Shown here one piece after another: positions 38,401-44,400 of a stretch of DNA of 64,000 nucleotides. Each line of letters begins with the position of its first letter. Position 1 is the first letter of the stretch. The DNA is taken from contig NC_090964.1 of the NCBI RefSeq assembly GCF_040807025.1, positions 8,084,214-8,148,213 of the forward strand, given 5' to 3'. The notes beneath the pieces were generated by a model. The model was not told the origin of the DNA. It made no database searches and worked only from the letters and a program-made list of their open reading frames with translations. Position numbers and translations under genes: made by a program. Origin of the DNA: Struthio camelus (Eukaryota > Chordata > Aves > Struthioniformes > Struthionidae).

Positions 38401-41400
38401 GGTATTGTCCCAGCAGTATCCATGAGCGGAGTGTAATTCAGAGAAAGCTAGCACCACCGTGATGCAGACATTTATTCTTTAATAAACCACAGAAATCTGT
38501 TCTTGACTTCTCTTTGCAGCTGAGCGTGCTCTAGATACCATGAATTTTGATGTGATCAAAGGAAAACCAATTCGCATCATGTGGTCTCAGAGGGACCCCT
38601 CCTTGAGGAAGTCAGGGGTTGGGAACGTCTTCATTAAGAACCTGGACAAATCCATTGATAACAAGGCACTTTATGACACGTTTTCAGCGTTTGGGAATAT
38701 TTTGTCCTGCAAGGTGAGATGTGGTTACTTTCTCCAGTTCTATTCTAGTGTTGACATGATCAGATATATTCAACGCAGAAAGCGAAAGGAACACCTTTCA
38801 CCAAGGGAGGGATGGAATCTCTAAAAGGCAGAGTTGACCAAAAGGTCAAGGATTGCTGAAGTTATGTCAGATTTGGATATCAGGTGTGCCAGTTTGAAAG
38901 GCAGATAGCATCTTACGCGCTTTGACCCTTGGCAGTAGCTTATTCTTCCGCACTCAGAGAGCTGACAATTCAATTTCCTTCCACATGTCCAGGTGGTGTG
39001 TGATGAGAATGGCTCTAAGGGCTACGCATTTGTGCACTTTGAGACCCAGGATGCTGCAGATAGAGCCATCGAGAAGATGAACGGCATGCTGCTAAACGAC
39101 CGCAAAGTGTGAGTGTCACAGCCAGAAGCAGCAACGATCGCATGAACCGTGATGCATCTCGGTATTAACAGGGACACACAAGGCACTGGTTCTCCTGGCC
39201 CAAGCCTTGGCCTGCTACCTCTCCACTACAGGGCTGGTGAGTGACCCTGCCCAAGCCATGGCCTGCTATCTCTCCATTACAGGGCTGTTGGGTTTCCCTA
39301 ACCAAGCCTTGATCTGCTACCTTTCCGCTAGTGGGCTGGGGTGGGTCTCTGTGGCCAGTACTCTCTCCACTGCAGAGCTGGGTGGGCATCCTTGGCTGCT
39401 TCTCTTCACCATAGGTCAGGTGATTTTTCTGGCTGGTCTGTGGCCTTTTTGTCCTTCTCTTTTCTGTTGCCCTTCCCTCTCCCCATTCCCAGTTCCTACT
39501 ATACACTCATTTTTTTGCCTCACTGCAAATCACACACACTGCTTCCATTCTTGAAAGCAACCTGCTCATTGTGATTTTTTTTCCTTTTTTCTGCCCTACA
39601 GGTTTGTTGGGAGATTTAAATCTCGTAAAGAACGGGAGGCTGAGCTGGGAGCCAAAGCAAAGGAATTCACCAATGTTTATATTAAAAACTTTGGGGATGA
39701 CATGGATGATGAAAGACTAAAGGAGCTCTTCAGCAAATATGGTAAATACAGAAACACTTTCAATGCAGCTGTGAGTGTCATAACCCATGTTAATTTGACA
39801 GTGCTGCTACCATCTGTATGGCCCCACCGGGGTCGTTTTGAGGCTGAAGAACAGGAAGAGATGAAACGTGGGTAGTTGTGCCAAGTGTTGGACAGAAGGC
39901 AGAGGCTGACGAGCAGATGAGAGAGAAGGCTAGGGCAATTATATGTAGTGTGATAGTCTTGAAATAGTTTCATATGATGTTTTACTAACCCTGTCCCTTT
40001 GCAATAGGTAAGACTCTAAGCGTTAAAGTGATGACAGACCCCACTGGAAAATCCAAAGGCTTTGGCTTTGTGAGCTTTGAAAAGCATGAAGATGCCAACA
40101 AGGTATGACCAACTTTTATGTGGCTTGGTTATCCTTAGAGAAGTAAAACTTGCCTGGCTTACCACAGGAGCCTATGACATGATACTGAAATGAGCTAAAA
40201 CTCTGCCTGAGGCCTAATGTCATCTAGGTTTTCAGACTAAAAACCTTTTACACGTCACTAGCTTGACATTCAGGAGTAAGTTGGCATTTCTCCAGCTTAC
40301 TAGATCCATGCAGAATTCAGTAAGATAATCAAGAACATTATTGCTAATACTGCAGTGGGGGGCTTCAGGGGAAGGAAGATGTCTAGAGTAAGAACACTGC
40401 TTAGAAATGCTCCTTTTCCAGCAGCATACTTGTCAAAATTTGGCTCTAACTTCAAGAAGGGGTGGGGAAATAACAAATTGCTGTTGTTAGGCGAGTGCTT
40501 GTGGTGAGGTTGTCAGCGTGGTCTCTTCTGATAGCTTTAGTTTGTCTTTAGCTAGCCTGTGTTATGTAGGAGTAACACAAAGGTCATATGGTGACCTTGG
40601 CTTTATTGGCTAGCAGATAGGGATATGATATAAGCTTTTAACAGTGAAGCTCTTAACAGGATCAGCTACTGTCTTGTTTTTAGAGTTGACAACTTTCTCT
40701 TTGAACCTTCTACCCAGGCAGTGGAAGAAATGAATGGAAAGGATATCAATGGGAAAATGGTGTTTGTAGGTCGAGCGCAGAAGAAAGTAGAGCGCCAGGC
40801 AGAACTGAAAAGGAAGTTTGAGCAGCTAAAACAAGAGAGAATCAGCCGGTACCAGGTAGCAATCTGTTTCTTTTCTGGATGTAAATATCAGTCTTGATGA
40901 TGAGCTATGTGCTAGGAGCACATGAGAACCTCTGTGATGCATTCTCCTTTGTCTTCAAATGGGGATACCTGAAAGGATGGAAAGAGACAGCACAATTCTG
41001 TGCTGTTGTATCTCTAATTTATGGTGGACTGTATTGCACTAGACATTGCATCTGAATCTTTCCCACTCCTTGCAGCGTAGTGCTGGACTGGGGACACGTG
41101 ATGCGACAGAAAAGCAGAGGAAATCCAGACGGGCTCCCTTTTACCACAGCGGGACTTGTCTCTACACCTTTGCAACATATATTGCCTTCAGTTTGGGGGA
41201 TACAGAAAAGAAAGTTATGCTAAACTAACAGTTTTTAGACAAATGGACAGGCTTGGGAGATGGGTGTTAACAGTCAGTGTGCTCAAGATTCCTTGTTATT
41301 GATATGGATGTCTTATGTATACTGTTCTCTCCCTTCTAGGGAGTTAACCTGTACATTAAAAACCTGGATGACACGATAGATGATGAAAAACTGAGAAAGG

Positions 41401-44400
41401 AGTTCTCACCTTTTGGGTCAATAACAAGTGCCAAGGTATTGTGGGCTTTGAGGGTATTTGGACTTTAAACCCTGAAGAACTGCTATCTGACATGGCATTC
41501 AAGTACAATTCCTGTATCCCCTGGCCATTCAGGTTTTGAGAACATCTGGACTAATAAATATGCAGATTTCAGCAGGTCTGGGGGGGATTGTAGTAATAAC
41601 TTGTTCTCACCGTCTCACCAAAAGAGGAGTCAGTAAATGGCAAACATGCTTGTTTGAGGTGACTCCTATAAGCAAGAGATGGTTCTTGGTTGCGTTCCCC
41701 TACACGCATTTAAAGGTTGCACCTGATCTTTCCCATTCCTTGCTGCCTAGTGCGGGCCTGGGGACACACGGTGCTTACAGAAAAGCAGAGTAAATCCAGA
41801 CAGGTGTGTTTACTTTTATTGAGTACTTGTCTCTACAACTCTGTGACAGTTCTGTCCTACCTGGAGAATCTGACATTTTTCTAGGGTGAAAAATATGGAC
41901 TCCTAGGCTAAGTTCTTGTAGTGCTGCTCCACTAACAATTGATATTTACTGCAGGTGATGCTGGAAGATGGACGGAGCAAAGGGTTCGGCTTCGTCTGCT
42001 TCTCTTCTCCAGAGGAAGCTACAAAAGCTGTGACGGAGATGAATGGGCGAATTGTGGGCTCGAAGCCATTGTACGTTGCGCTTGCACAAAGGAAAGAAGA
42101 GCGAAAGGCCCATCTAACTAATCAGTACATGCAACGCATTGCTGGGATGAGAGCCTTGCCTGCCAACACAATCATTAACCAGTTCCAGCCTGCTGCTGGG
42201 GGATATTTCATGCCTGCTGTGCCCCAGGTAAGCTGAGCTGAGTTAGTGTGGTTTTATGGACACTTTAACCTGGCTTGGACCTTTGGTTCAACTGCAGTAA
42301 GCCCATGGAGCCTTTCTTGTGCCTGTAACTAAGCAAACAGCTCCTAATGAGAGGTGCAGAGTCAGTGGAGTTAATTGTGTGGCTTCTGATCTGCCTTCTC
42401 TCTTATGAGAATTGAGTGTTGAATCCTGGGAACAACTGCCAAAGCATGTTGCAAACGATGTTTGTTATTCACTTCATGTTCCTTCTGAGCTTGTCTCATC
42501 TCTCTTCAGGCTCAGAGCAGACCCACTTACTATGCACCCAATCAAATGACGCAGATGAGACCTAACCCACGCTGGCAGCAAGGGGGGAGACCTCAAGGTG
42601 AGCATGCTAGACACAGTGCTTTGGTTGTATGACCCTTTTGGCTGTATTTTCCAACAAGAGCAATGCATAGTTTCCCTGCCATGCAGAGCCCCAACCTGCT
42701 GCTTGTAGCTGACTGTCGTGATTGCCAGTCAGTTCTGTTTTGAGGATTTCCCCTCCTTTCTTCCATTAGGCTTCCAGGGAATGCCAAATGCCATGCGCCA
42801 GTCTGGACCACGGCCAGCACTGCGCCATCTGGCCCCTGCCGGCAATGCTCCAGCCTCTCGTGGCCTCCCTGCCGCTGCCCAGCGAGTTGGTAAGGTGTCT
42901 GCCTCCCAGGCTCTTCCCCTCATTCATGGGGAAGGGGGATGGTATTAAGACTTGACTTTTACATCAGACGTGGATAACGGAAGGCTGCCTGGAGCAAGGG
43001 GCAAAGACGGCACCTGAATCTTTCCTGTTCCTTGCTGTGCAGTGCAGGTCTGGGGACAATTGGTGCTACAGCAAAGCAGTGGAAATCCAGATGGGTTGCT
43101 TTCCTTTCACCTGGAACTCATCTCTACAACTCTGCAACACTTACTGCTCAAAAATGGCTCTGTAGATTATGGGTGGTGGTTTCAGAGTAAAGCATCCAAA
43201 TTCACTTTATTTCAGGGAATAAGTAGAAAATGTCTTAAAAGCAGATATAGAATCTATGGCTTAGTGTTAGGGAGGGTAGCTCCTTTCTAAAGAAGCCAAT
43301 TGGATTTTGGAGGCCAGTTTCTAAACCAGTATTAGGCTGTGCAGTGCATAATTAAAGTCCAGCAGTTAATATCAGACATCCCAATTTGCTTGCTGCGTGT
43401 TACTGTGGCTGTGTAATTCTGTCCTACTCTTCCTTTTCAGGTGTTGCCGCTGCAGCGCAGAATTTAGCTCCTCGTCCGCCAGTAGCTGCCCCTGCTCCCC
43501 GAGCAGTTCCTCCTTATAAATACGCCTCGAGTGTTCGCAGCCCACATCCGGCTGTACAGTCTTTGCAGGTAATGCAGTGGTCTGCTCTGTCAAGTCTGTC
43601 TAGTTAACGACAGTCCAACAGGTTTTACACGCAGCTGAAGTGTTTTTACAGAAACTTCAAGCTACTTTTTTATAGTCCCGACAGGGATCAGAAACTGGAA
43701 TTTAGAAAACTGGCAGTTGTCGTCACATACCTCCGCCAGGGGCAACTTGGTTGATTTGTCTGTCTTACTCTTCTAAGCCCTTTTTATCCAGATTTGCTGT
43801 AAGGCTGCTATTCTTGGCTCTTTGCTCTCACACTTTTGCTAGCTTTCACTCTCTCTCATCTCTTTGCTGAATTCTCGCTAGGGTATCACTGAAAGCACAG
43901 CTTGCCTCTCTATACACCGCTGCATTGTGCAAAAAGCAAACATGGGTGTTTCTCTTTCTCTGCCATGACATTTGCCTTATAATGCAAGGTCCAGTTTTTA
44001 TAACTAGGATATTTGCAAGCTACGTGCCCCTGTGTGACATTCTAGTTTTTGAGAATAGGACTTGGAGCGTGTTTGTGAACACAGGGCACCTTATCTGTCC
44101 TTTTCTGAAACTGACTCTACTGCAGGCCTGACAGAGTGCCATGTTTTAGAGGAAGGAAGAACTGCCTTGTCTTTAAATATGAAACAATCAGTCTGGCATC
44201 TGTTTTTGAATCCTCATCTTTGCCATTCTATAGGCACCTCAGCCTGCAGTACATGTGCAGGGACAGGAACCACTAACGGCCTCCATGCTGGCTGCTGCAC
44301 CTCCCCAGGAGCAGAAACAGATGCTGGGTAAGTGAATCTCCTGTTTTTTTACAGATCACATCTTATTTTGGAAATCCCATCAGGTTTCAGAGAACTGTTT

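Follow-up and report, generated by a model that had tools for sequence, protein, structure and literature searches.

Three SNORA55 paralogs in introns 6, 7 and 10 of PABPC4, very probably redundant guides for 18S U36

The closest described system is chicken GGgACA4 (Shao et al. 2009, PMC2653536), presented in the passages on this RNA as a 131 nt molecule with 3 isoforms, located in PABPC4 introns 6, 7 and 10, and directed to 18S-36 (18S-Psi36) through 7+4 nt in its 5' pocket. Its functional homologs are given as U69/ACA55, and nearly all chicken snoRNA paralogs are attributed to intragenic duplication. RT-PCR in that study covered nine guide and ten orphan H/ACA RNAs, and GGgACA4 is not named among the tested RNAs in these passages of PMC2653536. 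Three other sources touch on the family or on avian H/ACA RNAs: the avian survey PMC4378963, in the parts concerned, gives 48 of 68 chicken H/ACA loci as confirmed by RNA-seq, with SNORA55 unnamed in its main text; PMC6123486, in its relevant passages, mentions SNORA55 as one of the RNA genes that correlate with a long non-coding RNA in hens, with PABPC4 unmentioned there; and PMC9198423 names SNORA55 in prostate cancer, with no target given in the passages on it. A three-copy arrangement is already known, then, since it was published for chicken (PMC2653536, passages on GGgACA4).

We scanned the window, which is the whole stretch of 64,000 nucleotides that was analysed, with the Rfam models. 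At the gathering score it yielded three matches, every one of them to SNORA55 (RF00431):

41048..41180, + strand: SNORA55 copy 1, 133 nt, PABPC4 intron 6; H box 41106-41111, ACA box 41175-41177; Rfam RF00431, 110.8 bits
41719..41851, + strand: SNORA55 copy 2, 133 nt, PABPC4 intron 7; H box 41777-41782, ACA box 41846-41848; Rfam RF00431, 114.6 bits
43010..43142, + strand: SNORA55 copy 3, 133 nt, PABPC4 intron 10; H box 43068-43073, ACA box 43137-43139; Rfam RF00431, 128.4 bits

Each match covered model positions 1-135 of 135, and the gathering score of 45 was surpassed by 66-83 bits in all three copies (E 1.3e-27 to 4.5e-23), which places 3/3 in the family by covariance model. These full-length matches confirm the starts at 41048, 41719 and 43010 that an earlier note on this DNA had proposed for three SNORA55-like copies. 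A covariance-model search, the kind of check that it had put forward, returned three SNORA55 hits in the window, with none of the copies there left without a match. In a search of the genome (1.45 billion bases in 262 contigs; numbers for repeats and large families are to be read as minima) SNORA55 was present in at least three copies, the three PABPC4 copies being all the matches listed at E <= 0.001. We take human PABPC4 to host one SNORA55. A permissive Rfam scan of positions 32000-48000 detected no further or decayed SNORA55 copies in the host gene beyond the three; its 4 other matches each fell short of their own gathering score (E 1.7 to 4) and corresponded to SNORA14 (over copy 1), SNORD46, mir-9440 and CsrB.

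All three copies have the boxes of the H/ACA class, with an H box in the hinge and an ACA box 3 nt from the 3' end, and share both the full-length match and the same boxes with SNORA55/ACA55 (RF00431). The H box (ANANNA) was found at offset +58 in 3/3 copies, where the earlier note had also seen it, and reads ACAGAA in copies 1 and 2 and ACAGCA in copy 3. The ACA box lies at +128 and is followed by a tail of 3 nt in every copy, with the gene end taken from the Rfam model, and the spacing from pocket to box is 13-14 nt in 6/6 pockets. The copies had been described as 122 nt long with an ACA 3 nt from the end. Their actual length is 133 nt each: the proposed 122-nt ends lie within the lower stem on the 3' side, and the ACA that had been chosen as the box belongs to the pocket strand CTACA, the true one being at +128. 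The observation of three SNORA55 genes holds in the main, while the 3' ends were wrong, as was the argument on duplicated flanks discussed below.

The host gene was delimited as follows:

32457..44755, + strand: host gene PABPC4, approximate coding span, from translations, TIGR01628 and PDB matches; the last coding segment ends GVVAATS

The exons encode PABP peptides: exon 1 carries SLYVGDL at 32490 in the translation, and the later exons start near 38520, 38993, 39602, 40008, 40718, 41340, 41955, 42510, 42770 and 43441, with coding sequence to 44755. Exons 6 and 7 flank copy 1, exons 7 and 8 flank copy 2, and exons 10 and 11 flank copy 3, which places the copies on the sense strand of PABPC4 introns 6, 7 and 10. 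A query of 350 residues, joined by hand from exons 2 to 8, matched TIGR01628 (PABP-1234, PABP type 1-4 family) at 562.5 bits, above the cut-off of 497.1, and the same 350-residue stretch matched human PABP1 structures in PDB. The assignment in the earlier note to the SNORA55 family with PABPC4 as host is supported by the RF00431 matches and by the place of the host in the PABP type 1-4 family. Within that family we take the host to be PABPC4, and not PABPC1 or another PABPC, in view of the human protein sequence. The name was also chosen because of the host-gene label in the passages of the chicken paper (PMC2653536). On the minus strand, positions 54715-55524 form an open frame that matched the TGF-beta domain (PF00019) at 40.1 bits, the cut-off being 27; the remaining 9 of the 10 frames in that Pfam scan gave no family. 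This frame may belong to a BMP8 gene, which near PABPC4 would fit the human gene order.

As far as the published description of GGgACA4 goes (PMC2653536, passages on this RNA), the chicken and the present copies share the same three PABPC4 introns, 18S-36 and the use of the 5' pocket, and the chicken three-copy layout recurs here intron for intron. If the genome belongs to a species other than chicken, the duplications would have happened before the two lineages parted, and the three copies in chicken would be no prediction error.

The guide pockets were scanned against 18S (first 716 nt), U2, U5 and U6 of the same genome. The 5' pocket is complementary to 18S around U36 in 3/3 copies, and among the approximately 283 U scanned U36 was the best 5' pocket site of each copy. 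Downstream of U36, copies 1 and 3 can form 7 Watson-Crick pairs each, and copy 2 adds one G-U to its 7. On the upstream side the pairing runs without interruption over 4 pairs in copy 1, where it resumes after a mismatch, over 4 in copy 2 and over 5 in copy 3. The U36 score was matched by 13 out of 2000 shuffled 5' pockets for each copy. To judge by these sequences, all three copies would be guides for the same site, 18S U36. The earlier note had suggested either dosage gain or divergence of the guide pockets. The latter is contradicted, with 21 out of 22 pocket columns invariant and U36 the best 5' site throughout; since all three 5' pockets fit U36, redundancy or dosage is favoured and changed targets are disfavoured, and a dosage gain from three copies is possible.

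We therefore consider it very probable that these are three intron-encoded box H/ACA SNORA55 paralogs in PABPC4 introns 6, 7 and 10, old duplicates that would act as redundant 18S U36 guides. If expressed, each snoRNA would most likely be freed by processing of the spliced PABPC4 intron, and the freed SNORA55 RNA would be bound by H/ACA proteins. The pocket of the 5' hairpin would then pair on both sides of 18S U36, and dyskerin is predicted to turn this uridine into pseudouridine, with the three old duplicates presumably retained for their redundant guiding.

The copies have diverged considerably outside the pockets. Pairwise, 95 of 134 columns are identical between copies 1 and 2, 98 of 133 between copies 1 and 3, and 99 of 134 between copies 2 and 3 (71-74%). 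Invariant columns made up 21/22 of the pockets and 64/112 of the rest of the alignment (Fisher one-sided p 0.00025, for regions picked after viewing the alignment), and the most variable region was the 3' apical part, where 4 of 21 columns are invariant. This pattern fits copies that would be old duplicates selected for their guide pockets, and it opposes target divergence. A functional separation, in which the 3' pocket or altered 5' pockets guide different uridines in each copy, could appeal to the differences at about 26-29% of columns and to the other new guiding functions after sequence change that the chicken paper reports (PMC2653536, in part). Yet the differences spare the pockets, the 3' arms being identical (AAATCC / CTACA, 11/11 columns) and the 5' arms invariant in 10/11 columns, and among the scanned RNAs each pocket keeps one best site across 3/3 copies; we regard such a separation as extremely improbable.

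The invariant arms of the 3' pocket are located as follows:

41121-41126 with 41162-41166: 3' pocket arms of copy 1
41792-41797 with 41833-41837: 3' pocket arms of copy 2
43083-43088 with 43124-43128: 3' pocket arms of copy 3

No supported target of this pocket was found in the first 716 nt of 18S, U2, U5 and U6. The best site was 18S U642 in 3/3 copies (score 8 to 8.5), and 176 to 254 out of 2000 shuffled pockets equalled it. U642 is not known to be among the listed human pseudouridines. For this reason, and because shuffled pockets do as well, we do not claim it as a target. The 3' pocket might nevertheless be under selection and guide an unrecognised target, kept in triplicate, which would make SNORA55 a double guide; we hold this idea as a tentative and rather doubtful one. 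An invariant 3' pocket with no supported target in the scanned RNAs is a small testable lead.

Regarding the fold, we recovered the arrangement of hairpin, hinge, hairpin and tail with two internal-loop pockets, from the consensus fold of the three copies and the Rfam structure, with a weak single-sequence fold in copy 3. The consensus fold has 34 pairs, and both sides changed in 4 of them. The covariation in the closing stem of the 5' hairpin that had been noted earlier, where copy 1 has GCATC/GATGC and the other two copies have GCACC/GGTGC, was found again and amounts to one compensatory pair, a single change from U-A to C-G. The closing-stem pair of copy 2 was counted as broken in the consensus fold because MAFFT put a gap there. 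In single-strand folding, copy 1 was ahead of all 200 shuffles (z -3.4), while copy 2 (z -1.5) was equalled by 16 of 200 shuffles and copy 3 (z -0.6) by 52 of 200; the free fold of copy 3 has a 3' hairpin that deviates from the consensus one. The weak shuffle tests for copies 2 and 3 count against the three-gene explanation.

These data also bear on whether a single copy is active, most likely copy 3 as the best model match, with the other two being decaying pseudogenes. Copy 3 does have the top model score, several model positions are unpaired in the 3' apical stem of copy 1, and copy 2 has lost a nucleotide next to its 5' pocket and closes its 3' hairpin with a G-U pair. The boxes, however, are intact in 3/3 copies and the pockets nearly invariant while other columns changed, and the shifted base of copy 2 still leaves 7 Watson-Crick pairs and one G-U at that place. 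The weakest free fold, moreover, belongs to copy 3 and to neither copy 1 nor copy 2, and in chicken, too, each of these three introns carries a copy (PMC2653536, passages on GGgACA4). A single active copy is therefore very unlikely in our opinion, and three redundant guides remain the preferred reading.

For the origin of the copies we compared their flanks. Out of six flank comparisons, in which the intron ends are approximate to within a few bases, five did not rise above the shuffled background, their scores being reached by 13-76% of 200 shuffles. The sixth, which set the 5' flank of copy 2 against that of copy 3, was marginal, with 1.5% of 200 shuffles reaching its score; ungapped identity in the adjacent 30 nt was 4-12 of 30. 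The earlier note had described homology running about 18 nt past the ACA box and had concluded that each copy arose by local DNA duplication with flank. Since the true ACA lies at +128 and the gene is 133 nt long, 14 of those 18 nt belong to the gene itself, and the conclusion rested on the mis-set gene end. Duplication with flank has no support at sequence level: the homology that would point to a segmental event is absent past the true gene ends except for the one marginal comparison of the six, and we rejected it.

The lack of clear homology past the gene ends is what would be expected of retroposed RNA copies, and retroposition would rival DNA duplication for the origin of the three genes only, not for their function. 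Old DNA duplications, however, lose flank similarity too, a single host gene carries all the copies, each of them in sense, no additional copy is among the genome matches listed, and no snoRNA retroposon trace was found in chicken according to the passages of PMC2653536 on this question. We consider retroposition unlikely. Intragenic duplication is the likely origin, because all copies share one host gene and because PMC2653536, in its passages on paralogs, favours such an origin in chicken.

SNORA69 (RF00265) gave one match listed in the genome (98.6 bits, L004 1501-1632). We take the segments at this locus to be RPL39 coding. In passages of PMC2653536, chicken GGgACA2 (homolog U69) is located in RPL39 intron 2, and SNORA69/U69 and SNORA55/ACA55 are both named as mammalian homologs for 18S-36; the two are separate families. 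For 18S, a 47-base pattern of the 5' end had one exact match in the assembly, at the end of contig C123 (L005/L006), which stops 716 nt into the 18S gene, and an 18S 3'-end pattern had no exact match anywhere in the assembly. Since the 18S contig ends inside the gene and the 3'-end pattern has no match, ribosomal DNA is probably largely unassembled. Finally, eleven high-scoring U2 matches (186.7-187.9 bits) were found on contig C35 at 542506-598445 (L007, L008); the six minus-strand and the five plus-strand matches form two separate groups.
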